NCBI RefSeq assembly: GCF_038967635.1
Contig: NZ_CP152413.1
Coordinates: 806,001 to 870,000 of the forward strand
Direction: 5' to 3'
Origin: Bradyrhizobium sp. B124
Lineage (GTDB): Bacteria > Pseudomonadota > Alphaproteobacteria > Rhizobiales > Xanthobacteraceae
DNA: 64,000 nucleotides
Of this stretch, positions 3-6,123 are shown in pieces. A program made the translations under genes and the position numbers. Numbering within the stretch: the first letter of the stretch is position 1; the number at the start of each line of letters is the position of its first letter. The notes under the pieces were generated by a model. It was not told where the DNA came from. It worked only from the letters and a program-made list of their open reading frames with translations, and made no database searches.

Positions 3-605
3 CTGCTCGCCGACCAGCGCGTGATCGGCTGGTTTCAGGGCCGCTCAGAATTCGGTCCCCGCGCGCTCGGCAACCGCAGCCTGATTGCCGATCCGCGCAA
101 GGCCGAGATGAAGGACATCCTCAACAGCCGCGTCAAGCACCGGCAGGCCTTCCGCCCGTTCGCGCCGATCGTGCTGGCCGAGCGGATGACGGAGATCTTC
201 GAGGGCGAGGAGGACTCGCCCTACATGCTGATCGCCAAGCCGGTGCGCCCCGAATGGCGCGACAAGATCCCGGCGATCGTGCATGTCGATGGCTCGGCGC
301 GGGTGCAGAGCGTGCGGGAGGAAACCAACCCGGTGCTCTATCGCCTGCTGAAGGAGTTCGAGGCGCTGACCGGTGTGCCGGTGCTGATCAACACCTCGTT
401 CAACGTCAAGGGCGAGCCGATCATCGAGACGCCGCAGGATGCGGTGAGCTGCTTCCTTACCACCGGGATCGACAACCTCGTGCTGCACGACACGCTGGTG
501 TCGAAGACCAAAATGCACAAGGTCGTCACGCCCGTGATGACGACGTTCGGCGACGTCGCCACCATCGTCTCCTCGACCACGCAGGACGGCAGCCGCGGCG
601 GCTGA
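3..605 (+). CDS. carbamoyltransferase, C-terminal part (5' end outside window)
   Basis: This is the C-terminal domain of a NodU/CmcH-type carbamoyltransferase, the family that moves a carbamoyl group from carbamoyl phosphate onto a sugar or antibiotic hydroxyl. The visible frame is open from base 3. It contains the family signature GWFQGRSEFGPRALGNRS and, later, NTSFNVKGEPI, both typical of the Carbam_trans_C domain. The catalytic N-terminal domain lies off the left edge, so substrate cannot be inferred. The stop falls 40 bases before the convergent stop of the SagB-type dehydrogenase, so it is probably not co-transcribed with the peptide-modification locus. GTG at 21 is an internal codon rather than the start. 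Confidence 0.9.
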   Translation: MLADQRVIGWFQGRSEFGPRALGNRSLIADPRKAEMKDILNSRVKHRQAFRPFAPIVLAERMTEIFEGEEDSPYMLIAKPVRPEWRDKIPAIVHVDGSARVQSVREETNPVLYRLLKEFEALTGVPVLINTSFNVKGEPIIETPQDAVSCFLTTGIDNLVLHDTLVSKTKMHKVVTPVMTTFGDVATIVSSTTQDGSRGG

Positions 606-645: not shown

Positions 646-2112
646 CTATCGGGCAGGGGGCGGTTCCATGCCGCGCCCCAGCCCGAACTGGCCGACCGGC
701 CCCTCGACGTGAATGTCGAGCCCGGTCATCTTCGCGAACAGATCGATATTGGCGGTGCCGATCGCACAGCCGCCGAGGCCCAAATCCGTCGCCACCAGGT
801 ACAGCGTCTGGGTCAGGACGCCGACATCCTTCAGGACGAGCGCATAAGCGATTGCGCTGTACTTCCAGGAGATCCGGCCAAAACGCGCGGCGATGGTGAT
901 CAGGATCTGCGGTGGAGACGGCGCGTCCATGGCAAATCCCGCGCTTTGCAACATGGCCTCGAAGTGTTGCGGGCGAACGTCGATGGCTGCCAACGCATGC
1001 GCATCGGCGTCGTAGTGGTAGAAACCTGGCGTCAGGCCGTCGCAATTCGCGACGGCCAGATAGAGCTCAAGCTCGTAGGCGCTGCCCGCTGCCGGATACG
1101 GCCTGCTGGTGTATTCGATATCGGGACCATCATCGGCAAACTCCAGCTGCCCGCTCCATTTCGCCCGGACCCGCGCGACGCTGTTCAGGAACGTCGAAAG
1201 TTCAGCCAACGTGATGGGCTTGTGATTGTCGAAATCGCGAGTCGAATGCCTGTCATGCAGCAGTTGTTCCAGCGGCGAGGCGATGCGGTCGGATTCCGGC
1301 AGCCTGATGCGCTTACCGGGCCAGGCAGGTCGGATCGCGGGGAGCGGCGCAATCAGGCCGGTGTGCGGATAGAGGCCACCCAGCGGATTAGCCTGTCGGC
1401 CTTCCGTGCTGCGGGCATGGAACAGCAAGTCGTGAAAATCCCAGAGCACGAGGCCGTCATCGCCTTCCGCTTTTCGCAGCGTATCGCGTTGTGCCGCGTC
1501 GACCTCGATCAGGATTTGGCAGTCCAGCAGCAGCGCAAGCAATGCAGGGCCCGGATAGCCATCCAGACGCCGGATGCGGCTGATCTTCTGAGGAGTGGCA
1601 AGGATGGTCAGCAGGGCCGCAATCCGCGCATCATGGATCCTCAACAGTGCGCCGGCCCGCGGTGATTCCAAAATCATCTCGGTGCCGCGCCGCCGAAGAT
1701 AGGCGAAGCGTGACAGCACGATTGTTGCCGCATCGTCGAGCTTTGGCGTTCGCGGCCAGTAATCGGGGGTCTGCGGCTCGATCGTGACGAGAGGATTGGC
1801 GTCGCCCGTGCGCGCCAGGCGATATTCCAGCAGGCCGCGGTGTGCCAATTGCCGCACCAGGCGCTCGACCTCTCGCTCGACCGCATCGCCGTCAGGGCGA
1901 GGGAGTGGCAGGCCTGCCCGCAGTTCGAGGGCGCGTTCCGCTGCGGCTGTGCTGAACGTTCCCAGAGGCTCCGAATAGCCTTCGACATGGGCCGCTATAC
2001 TCCCGTCAGGTTGCGCTTCGAGCGCGACGAGCGGGTTGAGCCGAGCGAAGACAACCGGCGGCGTGGTGCGTGACGATTTCTTTTTCTCGTACATTTTGCT
2101 GGGCGCGCGCAC
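646..2112 (-). CDS. SagB-type azoline dehydrogenase (nitroreductase fold)
   Basis: Predicted FMN-dependent dehydrogenase that would oxidise thiazolines/oxazolines made by the adjacent cyclodehydratase to thiazoles/oxazoles. The 488-residue protein has an N-terminal extension (about 1-280) without a recognisable catalytic motif, then a SagB/ThcOx nitroreductase domain (about 285-480). Visible family features are HDRHSTRDFD, SRPYPAAGSAYELELYL near 336-352, and a glycine-rich LGLGGCAIG segment near 455. The GTG start at 2112 is preceded by GAGGTGAT at good spacing; the later in-frame ATG at 2094 has no such site. It begins 12 bases after the cyclodehydratase stop, which indicates translation from one mRNA. 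The substrate assignment is inferred from context. Confidence 0.88.
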   Translation of the reverse strand: MRAPSKMYEKKKSSRTTPPVVFARLNPLVALEAQPDGSIAAHVEGYSEPLGTFSTAAAERALELRAGLPLPRPDGDAVEREVERLVRQLAHRGLLEYRLARTGDANPLVTIEPQTPDYWPRTPKLDDAATIVLSRFAYLRRRGTEMILESPRAGALLRIHDARIAALLTILATPQKISRIRRLDGYPGPALLALLLDCQILIEVDAAQRDTLRKAEGDDGLVLWDFHDLLFHARSTEGRQANPLGGLYPHTGLIAPLPAIRPAWPGKRIRLPESDRIASPLEQLLHDRHSTRDFDNHKPITLAELSTFLNSVARVRAKWSGQLEFADDGPDIEYTSRPYPAAGSAYELELYLAVANCDGLTPGFYHYDADAHALAAIDVRPQHFEAMLQSAGFAMDAPSPPQILITIAARFGRISWKYSAIAYALVLKDVGVLTQTLYLVATDLGLGGCAIGTANIDLFAKMTGLDIHVEGPVGQFGLGRGMEPPPAR

Positions 2113-2124
2113 GCCGGTATCACC

Positions 2125-4377
2125 TCAAGTGTGCGGGAGAAATGGCGTCAACTCGCTTTCCAGCGACGGCCGATCGCGCAATCCGAGCTTGACGGGCACA
2201 TCATAGAGCCGCCCCGGCGCGAAGCGGCGATAGAAATGGCGCATCCCGGGAACGATGACCCGGACCACCGGAACCTCGACGTCCGGTCGCGTCTGGTCGA
2301 GAATCAGGAAGTCGAGACCCGCGCGGGCCGCGATATCAACGCAGGCATCCACCTGTGCACGGGTGTTGTCGAGCGGCACGTCCGTCGCGGCGGCCGGCGG
2401 GATGACGGGATTGGCACTTGGAATCAGGAACGGATATTCGTCGAGCCGCAGCGGATTGACGCCATCGAGGCTCGGCTTCTCGCCGCTGCCACCACCCATC
2501 AGACCGATGGAGAGGAACTGATTCAACTCGGTCAACGACCGCAGTAGCGCGATACGCGGATCGAAGTGAGCGCCCGAGCCAAACTCGATGTTTTCCTGAC
2601 CGTTCTGCATCCAGTGCACGATCGCGACATAGGTCGGGACGCCGAGATCGCTGGTGATATCCAGCACCCAGAGCCGCCGGCCCGATTCCTCGAGTTGGGT
2701 CTTCAGATCGCGGACGTAGGAATCGCCGAACTGGTCCAGATCGACCGCAGCGCGTTGCGACCGGTTGTACCACCAGATCGCATAGGCGTCGCGCTCCATC
2801 AATTCGAGGAAGCCCTGCACGATGGCTTCTTCGCGGGTATTGCCGGCAGCGCAGCCGTTGGAATCAGCGGCGAAGGCCGCCGGACCCTGATAGAAGAAAT
2901 ACAGCAGGCTGGTCGGAATCTGCCTGAACCGCTTGTCGCGCAACGACCAGACGGGTGACCATTCGATTTTCGCGGACGGATCAAACGGCTCGGGGGCGGG
3001 CTGCGTGTGGTGTGAGTCGTTGGGATTCGGCACGGCGCTGCCGCGGTACTGCTCGTCGCTGAAGAGCAGGATGTCGTTGGGACGGATTGCGTCGCCAGGG
3101 GGGAAGTCGGCGAAGCGTTTTCGGGCCCGGATCTCATCACCCTGGAAAATTCCCGAATATCGCTCGATTGCTTCCATCAGCGCGCTGGCCTCGCCTTGCT
3201 CGGCCGTGCTGCCCTTGCCGAAACTGCCGCCGCTCAGCCCGGCGCGAAGCTGATCCACGTTCTGCGCCGGCGCGGAGAAGTTATGTTGGGCATAGAAATT
3301 GGTGTTCATCGGCAGATCGACTTCGATCCGCTCCAGCCGCGTCACCACACCGGTGAGGGGGCTGACATGCTTCTTGAACCGCGCTACCGTGGTGCGGGAC
3401 GAGACGGTGCGATAGCCGCCGCTGGTCATGACCAGCTTGGCGCCGGGTCCCAATTCGACCGGTTGTGGTGACCGCCGCGGGTTTTGCAGTTTCTTGTTGC
3501 CGCAGGTTGGGCATTGCGGGCGGGCTGCCACGTAGTGCTTTGCAATGGTCGAGCCCAGCAGGTCGAGACTGACGATGTGATTGCGCAGATCGGTGCGGAA
3601 GCCGCTCGCGATAGCCTTGGCGACTTCAATCGCCGCAAAGTGGATGGCGCTCTGTCCAACGGTGTGCTGTGCGAGCGCAGAAACCGCGACCCGCCGCGCC
3701 GCGCCGCGATCAAGGAAGCCCTTGACCTCGCGGTTGCGGATCATCCGGTCGTACAGGCAGGTCCAGCACGCGGTCTCGCCCGGGCTGAACATGGGGCCGA
3801 CCAGGGGAAATACCCCGGAGGGCTGCACCAGCAACCAGGCTGATCCGTCGGACACGCGCTGCAGGTTGCGTTCGGCGAGCCGCCGATCGAGATAGTCGTT
3901 CACCAACGTAACCGTAAGGTCGGGCGATGTCTTGACGACGCGGACGCCCAGCCCCTGTAGTGCCTTGCTCAATTCGGCCGCGCCCTTGACGTCGATCGTC
4001 TCAAGTCGAACGCGGCAGTTGTGAAGGTTTTGTTCGGCTATCGCGTCAGGAAGGCCCAGGCTCGCCCAAAGTCCCGCCGCGGCGGTGCCGGGACCTGGCG
4101 ATTTCGCGATCACATAGCGGCGGTCGAGCAGTCGCTTGATAGCTTCATTGATCTTGTCGGACGGAAACTTTCGCCCGAGCTTGTCCGTGAGCTTGGCGAC
4201 GCTGCATCCATTTGCACCGATTGCCGACGCCAGCGTGCAATAGAGCTCGCCATGGAGAAAGAACTTTCGATCTTCGGAATAGAGGCAGACAACATCCGGA
4301 GGCAGCGCGTAGGCCGTGAAATTCGGTGCGAACTGCAGAACGTCGTTGTTGGCGCGCTGGGTGGATTTGCCTGGCAA
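2125..4377 (-). CDS. TOMM cyclodehydratase, fused E1-like (C) and YcaO (D) protein
   Basis: Predicted ATP-dependent cyclodehydratase converting Cys (or Ser/Thr) of a ribosomal peptide to azolines. Residues about 1-300 resemble the ocin-ThiF-like/E1-like leader-binding partner, with two CxxC pairs (C204-C207 and C289-C292) expected to hold zinc. Residues about 330-750 are a YcaO domain: GKGSTAEQGEASALMEAIER near 388-407 matches the ATP-binding signature, and NGCAAGNTREEAI followed by ELMERDAY is the second conserved block. The last residues, TPFLPHT, only loosely resemble the Pro-rich tail of peptide-cyclising YcaO proteins. The TTG start at 4377 has AGGAA seven bases upstream. It sits between the precursor gene and the SagB-type dehydrogenase; a C-D fusion is a common architecture in TOMM loci. 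Confidence 0.9.
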   Translation of the reverse strand: MPGKSTQRANNDVLQFAPNFTAYALPPDVVCLYSEDRKFFLHGELYCTLASAIGANGCSVAKLTDKLGRKFPSDKINEAIKRLLDRRYVIAKSPGPGTAAAGLWASLGLPDAIAEQNLHNCRVRLETIDVKGAAELSKALQGLGVRVVKTSPDLTVTLVNDYLDRRLAERNLQRVSDGSAWLLVQPSGVFPLVGPMFSPGETACWTCLYDRMIRNREVKGFLDRGAARRVAVSALAQHTVGQSAIHFAAIEVAKAIASGFRTDLRNHIVSLDLLGSTIAKHYVAARPQCPTCGNKKLQNPRRSPQPVELGPGAKLVMTSGGYRTVSSRTTVARFKKHVSPLTGVVTRLERIEVDLPMNTNFYAQHNFSAPAQNVDQLRAGLSGGSFGKGSTAEQGEASALMEAIERYSGIFQGDEIRARKRFADFPPGDAIRPNDILLFSDEQYRGSAVPNPNDSHHTQPAPEPFDPSAKIEWSPVWSLRDKRFRQIPTSLLYFFYQGPAAFAADSNGCAAGNTREEAIVQGFLELMERDAYAIWWYNRSQRAAVDLDQFGDSYVRDLKTQLEESGRRLWVLDITSDLGVPTYVAIVHWMQNGQENIEFGSGAHFDPRIALLRSLTELNQFLSIGLMGGGSGEKPSLDGVNPLRLDEYPFLIPSANPVIPPAAATDVPLDNTRAQVDACVDIAARAGLDFLILDQTRPDVEVPVVRVIVPGMRHFYRRFAPGRLYDVPVKLGLRDRPSLESELTPFLPHT

Positions 4378-4495
4378 AGAATCGTTCCTGTGCAGCTTGT
4401 GGGTCGATCATTGAAGCGGGCAAGGCGCCGGCCTCGACACCTCCGCGCCGTTGCCCGAAGCGAGCCGCGCAACGATACGGACACAATACAAATTT

Positions 4496-4524
4496 GGCCG
4501 GGTCGACGTGTGTCGGACCCGGCC
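4496..4524 (-). terminator. hairpin between precursor and cyclodehydratase genes (attenuator or terminator)
   Basis: A perfect 9-bp stem (GGCCGGGTC pairing with GACCCGGCC) encloses an 11-base loop. On the minus strand it lies about 40 bases after the precursor stop and is followed by AAATTTGTATTG, a weak T-rich tract. It could partly terminate transcription or protect the 3' end of a precursor-only transcript, giving more precursor than enzyme. The structure is visible; the function is inferred. Confidence 0.55.
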
Positions 4525-4561
4525 ATGACGGTCGATGTGTGTCAACGCGATGCTGTTTCGA

Positions 4562-4969
4562 CTAGCAGATGCGGCAGGCGCCCCACGACAGACAGCAGCC
4601 GCCACCGCAACCAGCGCAGCCACCGCAGCGGCAGGCACGGCAGCCGCGGCAACCACGACAGCCGCGGCAACCTCGGCAGCCGCCGCATCCGCGCCACGCC
4701 ACCTGGACGCCGGCTCCGATGTCTTCCTTGTCGAACAGGTGGAACGTCGCCAGGCTGACGTCGGCGATTTCTTCTTCGCCGAGTGTGATGGCTTGCGTCG
4801 GTCCGTACTTCTGAATCGGCGGCCCGTCTGCTGCTGGAACTGCGGATGCGGACGCACCCCCGACCAGCGAGAAAGTCAATCCGGCTGCACCCAAAGCGGG
4901 CACAGCGGCCTTGGTCATACGCTTGCTCGTCACACGCTTGGTCTTGGGGGCTTGCTTCACTCGCGGCAT
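4562..4969 (-). CDS. Cys-rich azole-peptide (TOMM) precursor
   Basis: Likely substrate of the two downstream modifying enzymes. The 135-residue product has a basic N-terminus (8 Lys/Arg in the first 20), a hydrophobic signal-peptide-like stretch (about 21-45, ending ASASA), a Cys-free acidic segment (about 64-83, containing LGEEEIADVS and HLFDKED) and a core from W92 to C135. The core has 14 Cys in 44 residues, mostly as Gly-Cys or Arg-Gly-Cys repeats, ending GACRIC, and only one Ser. Gly before Cys is a favoured context for TOMM cyclodehydratases. The ATG at 4969 is chosen because GGAGG lies eight bases upstream; the frame stays open further upstream without a better site. The closest analogy I know is the Cys-repeat heterocycloanthracin type, but I do not recognise a named family. 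Confidence 0.85.
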   Translation of the reverse strand: MPRVKQAPKTKRVTSKRMTKAAVPALGAAGLTFSLVGGASASAVPAADGPPIQKYGPTQAITLGEEEIADVSLATFHLFDKEDIGAGVQVAWRGCGGCRGCRGCRGCRGCRACRCGGCAGCGGGCCLSWGACRIC

Positions 4970-5232
4970 GCTCGCATCCTCCATTCTTGACGTGTTGTCG
5001 AATTCAACTCTCGCGCAGTTGTACAAATTGTCGCAGCCGCATGCAAGGCGCGCTGCGCGCACACTCTCGCGAGGCGCTAGCGTGCATCAAGTGCTGTCGT
5101 TCATCTTCGTTCTCGGGTTCATCTTGATGAACGCGATTATTGGCCGGCCCTGTCGCTCAGGCGCGATCGTTGACGATGTGGGAATTTGCATGCTGCACTG
5201 CGGTTGTCCCGACGCCGAAGCGAGGGATCGGC

Positions 5233-6123
5233 ATGGCTGATGATGGTGCGGGCTTCGCTTGGTATGAGCTGCTGACCACGGACGTGGGAGGAGCGAGTGC
5301 CTTTTACGGCAGCGTCCTCGGCTGGGTGACGAAGGATGCGTCGACACCCGGGATTTCTTACAAATTGTTCATGTCGGGGGAGCTTACCCGAAGCGGTCTG
5401 ATGGAGTTGCCGGAAGAGGGCATACGCCAGGGCGCAACCCCGCGATGGATTGGTTATGTCGGTGTTGACGACGTGGATCTTGCCGTTCGCCGAATGCTAG
5501 AACGTGGTGGCGCCGTCTACGTGCCACCGACCGGCACCAATATCGGCCGTATCTCGATCGTCGCCGACCCGCAGCGGGCGACGTTCGGGTTGCTTAGCGG
5601 ATCAAGGATCGCTCGGCCCGCGGTTGAAGGCCTCGATGCCCCTGGACGGGTCGGCTGGCATGAACTGCTGGCTGCCGATTGGCGGAAGGCCTTTGGTTTC
5701 TACAGCGAGGTTTTTGGCTGGCGACAGGCCGACAGCGACGTCGCTGGCGCCGAGTCCTACCAACTGTTCTCTGCTGGTGGGCAGACCATCGGTGGAATCT
5801 TCAACAAGCGTCCGCTCGAACCGATCGCGTTCTGGCTTTACTATTTCAACGTCGACGACGTCGACGCCGCCATCGTGCGAGTCAGGGCCGGTGGCGGACG
5901 GGTCTACGAGGGGCCGCTGGAGCTGCCGAACGGCAGTTGGATCGTTCGCTGCCTTGACCCGCAGGGCGCCACGTTTGCCCTGGAGGGAGCGCGCAGCTCC
6001 GATAGCATCGCGAAGGCGCCGCCGGCCGAGTATCGCTGGACCACCACCTGGGATGGGTTCACTTCAAAGGGCAGGTGGCGAAGCGGCCAGCCGGGTGGCA
6101 AAGGGCGGCGGCCGGGCAAATGA
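5233..6123 (+). CDS. two-domain VOC (glyoxalase/bleomycin-resistance fold) protein
   Basis: A 296-residue protein made of two vicinal-oxygen-chelate modules (about 1-130 and 140-260). Each starts with a WYELL/WHELL motif followed by a FY..V.GW segment, and ends with a D.Q.A.F.L strand (DPQRATFGLL; DPQGATFALEG). The family includes glyoxalases, dioxygenases and drug-binding resistance proteins; the substrate cannot be told from sequence. The ATG at 5233 has GAGGG six bases upstream, which favours it over earlier in-frame starts. It is divergent from the TOMM precursor, 263 bases start to start, and convergent with the OpgC gene nine bases downstream. The C-terminal tail after 270 is basic and low-complexity. 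Confidence 0.85.
   Translation: MADDGAGFAWYELLTTDVGGASAFYGSVLGWVTKDASTPGISYKLFMSGELTRSGLMELPEEGIRQGATPRWIGYVGVDDVDLAVRRMLERGGAVYVPPTGTNIGRISIVADPQRATFGLLSGSRIARPAVEGLDAPGRVGWHELLAADWRKAFGFYSEVFGWRQADSDVAGAESYQLFSAGGQTIGGIFNKRPLEPIAFWLYYFNVDDVDAAIVRVRAGGGRVYEGPLELPNGSWIVRCLDPQGATFALEGARSSDSIAKAPPAEYRWTTTWDGFTSKGRWRSGQPGGKGRRPGK

Follow-up and report, generated by a model that had tools for sequence, protein, structure and literature searches.

A stretch of 64,000 nucleotides from the 9.17-Mb, single-contig genome of Bradyrhizobium sp. B124 (the window; contig NZ_CP152413.1, positions 806,001 to 870,000) carries a set of genes that, judged by sequence, makes up a real family of a known kind, the linear azol(in)e-containing peptides (LAPs) or thiazole/oxazole-modified microcins (TOMMs). 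A cysteine-rich precursor peptide (A), a cyclodehydratase fused to its own leader-binding domain (CD) and a thiazoline dehydrogenase (B) are all encoded on the minus strand, and a protein of the vicinal oxygen chelate (VOC) fold is encoded by a gene divergent from that of the precursor. We consider it probable that this is a linear LAP/TOMM system with enzymes of the cyanobactin type, in which the VOC protein most likely protects the producer by binding the product. What places the genes in this class is a leader and a Cys-rich core encoded next to a YcaO protein of the azoline-forming type, together with the leader-binding domain. No paper describing the family was recognised in the literature searched (supplements excluded).

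An earlier note on this DNA had claimed a minimal locus of three genes forming a complete azole-installing set. Its coordinates for A, CD and B are correct, and judged by sequence the set is indeed complete. As a minimal locus it was one gene short: the VOC gene recurs almost as regularly as those of the enzymes and belongs to the gene set.

Relatives were compared in 149 genomes, of which 89 are Bradyrhizobium (the window genome included), and in a second set of 397 genomes drawn evenly across the order. Loci longer than 8 kb with a long CD match gave a first set of 57, which omits L074 and L098 (duplicates of retained loci) and L117 and L118 (CD at 36% identity). The addition of L133, L134, L136 and L137, with L135 (36%) omitted, brought the final set to 61, that is, to 60 distinct loci because L137 duplicates L043. 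Removal of repeats and of one frame with no start (L064) reduced 92 precursor reading frames to 84 distinct precursors.

Predicted modifying enzymes and precursor

The identity proposed earlier for CD, a fused E1-like/YcaO protein, is confirmed by NCBIfam TIGR03882 (leader-binding, 148.7 bits) and TIGR03604 (230.9 bits), both over their cut-offs, and by Pfam YcaO (314 bits); B likewise proved to be of the SagB type (TIGR03605 SagB, 176.7 bits; Pfam ThcOx, 113 bits). Among solved structures, LynD (487 bits) and TruD (461 bits) are the best matches of CD and cover almost all of it, with MusD next. Its residues 12 to 745 align with LynD, and the segments that we take to be the ATP site align with LynD and TruD. 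B matches CyaGox (187 bits) and retains the WKY segment, and its match to McbC is weak (25.5 bits). Both enzymes can thus be called cyanobactin-like, and cyanobactin enzymes are their nearest relatives among solved structures, by similarity and not by a tree. Conservation reaches 98% or more at 290 CD positions across the 57 loci. A PxPxP sequence at the end of the YcaO protein is a feature of LAP/TOMM systems; the C-termini of CD across loci (for instance, TPFLPHT and NPIHPHT) contain Pro but not the exact PxPxP. In one genome (G298; L134, 7619-9692), CD is split across two reading frames, through gene decay or sequencing error.

The description of the precursor as a 135-residue peptide with 14 Cys and one Ser in its last 44 residues was borne out; the same 44 residues hold 8 Arg. 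At E 0.1 the window precursor has no match in Pfam or NCBIfam. With the boundary placed at the first core Cys, leaders of the 84 distinct precursors are 85-99 aa long and cores 35-146 aa. Every precursor starts with a net charge of 2 to 10 followed by an uncharged hydrophobic stretch of 15 residues, and an AxA-like motif is found in 81 of the 84, as scored by our own script and not by a signal-peptide predictor. Of the 84 leaders, 80 carry the motif L(X)4[LIMV], against a background of 2.2% elsewhere in the leaders. All leaders together contain only 7 Cys, and acidic residues account for 18 of 4744 residues in the cores.

Cys after Gly is the placement expected of azole substrates. The earlier remark that core Cys are spaced in Gly-Cys units holds beyond chance: 872 of 1256 core Cys are preceded by Gly, against a mean of 455 and a maximum of 502 in 500 shuffles of the cores. 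Pairs of Cys three residues apart number 634 (shuffled mean 315, maximum 355). The core varies freely in length and sequence except for a conserved C-terminal cap, CCx[SR]WGxCxxC or a near form, which ends 76/84 precursors by pattern; the precursors of L047 and L054 carry the cap with one additional residue.

Table 1. Genes of the system and segments of the precursor, in window coordinates.
Feature	Position	Strand	Basis
Precursor peptide gene (A), 135 aa	4562..4969	-	Reading frame; searches in relatives
Precursor residues 1-42, like a Sec/Tat signal peptide (positive start, uncharged hydrophobic stretch, Ala-x-Ala)	4844..4969	-	Own script
Precursor residues 63-76, LGEEEIADVSLATF, conserved motif of the leader (L(X)4[LIM]), presumed CD-binding strand	4742..4783	-	80/84 precursors; alignment of 35 leaders
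Precursor residues 95-135, Gly-Cys-Arg core, 14 Cys, zero acidic residues	4565..4687	-	Sequence
Precursor residues 125-135, CCLSWGACRIC, conserved C-terminal cap	4565..4597	-	76/84 precursors by pattern
CD, fused leader-binding (E1-like) and YcaO cyclodehydratase, 750 aa	2125..4377	-	NCBIfam/Pfam; LynD/TruD match
B, SagB/ThcOx-type thiazoline dehydrogenase, 488 aa	646..2112	-	NCBIfam/Pfam; CyaGox match
Two-domain VOC-fold protein (glyoxalase/bleomycin-resistance superfamily, Rv0577-like), 296 aa	5233..6123	+	Co-occurrence; fold
Divergent gap between precursor and VOC genes, 263 bp, presumed shared control region	4970..5232	.	Coordinates only

Conservation and selection

Gene order is the same in all 60 distinct loci, with the precursor upstream of CD and B immediately downstream of it. 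At four of the 61 loci (L072, L075, L094 and L134) B was missed by the distance rule of the script and counted as present from coordinates; there, its start coincides with the end of the CD match or lies one base earlier. The earlier note had suggested looking for co-occurrence of precursor and YcaO genes among relatives, and the two coincide exactly: a CD of at least 70% identity is found in 40/149 genomes, all of them Bradyrhizobium (40/89 of the genus), and a leader profile (1e-4) recovers precursors in those same 40 and in no other genome of the 149. A single-sequence precursor search at E 0.001 gave 42/149, with weak matches in G052 (4.4e-5) and G090 (7.9e-4) that the leader profile did not recover. 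At E 1e-20, CD is matched in 44/149, of which G059, G062, G112 and G145 (32-37% identity) were excluded as carrying another kind of CD. Eight of the 397 genomes of the order have a CD at E 1e-60: five Bradyrhizobium (the window genome among them), G324 (59% identity), G298 with the split CD and G223 (37%). Named genomes, when scanned, yielded 25 loci with relatives of CD, from Bradyrhizobium strains, Methylocapsa acidiphila and metagenome bins labelled Xanthobacteraceae, Beijerinckiaceae, Alphaproteobacteria or Proteobacteria; of the loci fetched from these, Bradyrhizobium altum Pear77 has the nearest CD (98% identical). Searching proteins with the precursor of the window gave a count of 5394 matches at E 0.001, of which the best 120 were inspected; low-complexity cores may inflate this number.

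Purifying selection acts on all four genes, including that for VOC. In comparisons of the window with seven relatives, the ratio of nonsynonymous to synonymous substitution rates (dN/dS) is 0.09-0.19 for CD, 0.19-0.40 for B, 0.09-0.17 for VOC, 0.09-0.25 for the precursor leader and 0-0.09 for the core, where codon differences between relatives are mostly silent. One point weighs against taking the core value at face value as support for the system: dN/dS of a repeat core is biased low, since the alignment of repeats favours identity. The core is indeed repetitive, as it would be if a GC-rich tandem repeat merely happened to read as Gly-Cys-Arg. Such an artefact is hardly credible given that CD has a precursor with this leader next to it in 60/60 loci, that leader length is nearly constant with fixed motifs and that changes in the core are mostly silent.

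The same observations bear on the nature of the product. A peptide that is mainly metal-binding or redox-active, with some Cys made into azoles and the CC...C..C cap left free for copper, zinc or disulfides, would fit a cap that is conserved while the remaining core varies, and an N-terminus that resembles an export signal. We nevertheless judge this unlikely: a cyclodehydratase and a thiazoline oxidase accompany the precursor at 60/60 loci, both enzymes are under purifying selection in the seven relatives, Cys are positioned after Gly as in azole substrates, and no metal-related gene was recognised among the recurrent neighbours, most of them viewed without a profile search.

Several of these neighbours were considered as cluster members and rejected, as they follow the chromosome and not the system: OpgC (23/57 loci), an NDUS4-like protein (21/57), AsnC-like and TetR-like regulators (12/57 each), an acyl-CoA dehydrogenase-like gene (10/57) and a NodU-like carbamoyltransferase (5/57). 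The regulators and the dehydrogenase-like gene were named by reading. A NodU-like gene lies on the other side of the system in the window (21-605) and in 4/56 other loci, probably by coincidence; another, also named by reading, adjoins the system in G324 (L133, 5808-7508). A scan of positions 4300-5300 for promoters and terminators found nothing, and no sigma-70-like site.

The VOC-fold protein

The VOC protein (PF00903) has two domains, and its gene lies head-to-head with that of the precursor. It is present in 57/57 loci of the first set and 59/60 of the final set, in 52 divergent from the precursor and in 6 downstream of B, pointing toward B; in L054 (Methylocapsa) it lies further downstream. 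At E 1e-50, VOC is found in 48/149 genomes, namely the 40 with this CD and 8 of other genera without it, in which identity is 39-46%. Within Bradyrhizobium the association is complete, with VOC in 40/40 genomes that have this CD and in 0/49 that do not. Pairwise distances over the 57 loci correlate equally for CD and VOC (0.91) and for CD and B (0.91), which shows shared descent and not function. The sole locus without VOC belongs to G324, whose whole genome holds one VOC-like match at a threshold of E 1e-10 (32% identity over 108 residues) and whose precursor is without the C-terminal cap. Another genome (G053) has a second VOC, about 50% identical to that of the window, head-to-head with a precursor that has no adjacent CD. 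In one metagenome bin the VOC gene is interrupted midway by a stop (L040, 114-860).

Bleomycin-binding VOC proteins protect their producer. By analogy, VOC, encoded divergently from the precursor, would most likely bind the azole peptide and so protect the cell that makes it. The match to Ble-like_N (PF22677) reaches 23.5 bits, under the cut-off of 24.5. No bleomycin-resistance protein is among the 50 matches listed in the structural comparison, which excludes nothing; Rv0577 comes first, followed by three entries of AbxF, which is also matched by sequence. Proteins of the Rv0577 and AbxF types share the fold and the two-domain build, but the VOC described here is tied to a locus for a ribosomally synthesized and post-translationally modified peptide (RiPP), and identity to them is about 30% or less.

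Alternatively, the same azole system could use VOC as a third tailoring enzyme, acting on the cap or on the azole chain. AbxF forms a spiroketal in an antibiotic, H143 and E144 of VOC are invariant in 19/19, and the only locus to lack VOC is also one whose precursor lacks the cap. Set against this, W10, W72, W142 and W201, likewise invariant in 19/19, occupy the positions of the ligands in metal-binding VOC enzymes (by our own offset counting), the link between cap and VOC depends on that one locus, and VOC accompanies a precursor at only 1 of 29 loci distant from CD, though it could serve in trans. A tailoring role is a possibility that we entertain with some doubt, and product binding for producer protection is the role that we prefer.

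Related systems, scattered precursors and a proposed pathway

Phazolicin reportedly acts on the ribosome, going by a paper's title. As far as the available part of the source describes them, phazolicin and other rhizobial LAPs are like the predicted product in being azole peptides from a rhizobium (PMC6783444). Cyanobactin systems (LynD/TruD with ThcOx/CyaGox) supply the nearest solved relatives of CD and B by sequence and share a leader motif of the L(X)4L type; in the portion of the source available, the PatE leader binds LynD through this motif and is 42 residues long, whereas leaders here reach 85-99 aa and have a signal-peptide-like start (PMC12455567). The present locus further differs in its long Gly-Cys-Arg repeat core and VOC partner, and in having no PatA/PatG-type protease nearby in the window genome, where the nearest of six matches to the subtilase family PF00082 lies about 467 kb away. 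A cyanobactin-like cluster does occur in another Bradyrhizobium (G062; L117, 4333-12110), with a 36%-identical CD that ends in NPTPMPF and is flanked by two genes over the cut-off of the PatA/PatG protease family TIGR03895; nothing in G062 matches VOC at E 1e-10, and the two systems are separate. G083, which carries the main system, also has a second CD of 36-37% identity with a B homologue (L118, 3220-6461).

Heterocycloanthracin and sonorensin (TIGR03601) resemble the present system in the repeat core of Gly-Cys or Cys-Xaa-Xaa units and in precursors that often lie away from their enzymes; they differ from it in having a truncated CD and in needing a separate F protein (PMC4603692). It is very unlikely that the present system is an ordinary member of that family transferred to Bradyrhizobium. 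TIGR03601 does match two of ten relatives weakly, but the scores are 21.9 and 17.2 bits where the cut-off is 35, and it does not match the window precursor at E 0.1; the leader is of another type, and CD is untruncated and includes a leader-binding part of its own. The F protein profile (ocin_ThiF-like, TIGR03693) has 0 matches in the window genome and also 0 in 14 control genomes, and is therefore uninformative.

Precursors away from the enzymes are common in this family as well. The 40 CD-bearing genomes hold 70 precursors, 1 to 7 each, for one CD of this kind each; 14/40 have more than one precursor, and 30/70 precursors lie away from CD (the precursor of G028, near a contig end with CD on another contig, was counted as CD-side). 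The window genome has no further precursor, the best other match being at E 0.24. Among the 30 distant precursors the cap is kept in 21 and absent in 8, and one at a contig end (G001) was unread. VOC stands beside the precursor only at L058 of the 29 CD-distant loci examined, five of which reach 1.5 kb or less on each side. Some precursors combine a short Cys core with a basic tail rich in Pro (L059, 7198-7976; L060, L061, L068, L082 and L089). The unit in which they lie, of about 0.4-0.8 kb, is 94-99% identical in differing surroundings, with three copies in G053, and looks mobile, with no transposase or clear terminal repeat worked out from the alignment. In G027, two identical precursors lie far apart on the chromosome (L069 and L070), with a Gly/Ser/Gln tail in place of the cap.

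The CD/B pair probably serves these scattered precursors in the genomes that have them, so that one pair would modify several precursors in trans. A comparable arrangement is MprC with MprE1-MprE10, one azoline-forming YcaO cyclodehydratase with ten precursors and an L(X)4L leader motif, the likeness being by description in the accessible part of the source; its leaders are nitrile-hydratase-like (PMC12455567). A more elaborate version of the idea, which is conceivable but which we hold as tentative, is a combinatorial system, in which one chromosomal CD/B pair acts on dispersed, fast-diversifying precursors with a shared leader and a mostly shared cap, and a near-constant VOC reads the cap, for modification or for self-disarming by the producer.

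In the linear LAP/TOMM pathway that we favour, the RiPP-recognition domain of CD would bind the precursor leader at the L(X)4[LIM] motif, and CD with ATP would close core Cys onto the preceding carbonyl, mostly that of Gly, to form thiazolines, which B would oxidise to thiazoles. The predicted product is a cationic poly-thiazole peptide spaced by Gly and Arg, and it is probably linear because no subtilisin-type macrocyclase lies near the locus in the window genome. The N-terminal signal-like segment may export the peptide by the Sec or Tat route, and this would account for the lack of any recognised transporter gene in the set. A host protease would cleave close to the conserved V-Q-x-A with which the leader ends. 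The sequences establish the genes, their families, their co-occurrence, the selection on them and the conserved motifs; the chemistry, the export and cleavage of the peptide, service in trans, producer immunity and any antibacterial role are inferred.

Bradyrhizobium is one of the main genera of legume symbionts and of the soil. Its many strains with this system very probably convert a peptide of cysteine repeats into linked thiazole rings, as far as sequence can tell, and the VOC protein may protect the producer or finish the product. How a VOC-fold protein serves an azole peptide is a testable question that the system raises, and the scattered precursors would provide a single enzyme pair with a natural range of substrates. 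If real, this large LAP family may shape competition among soil and nodule bacteria.
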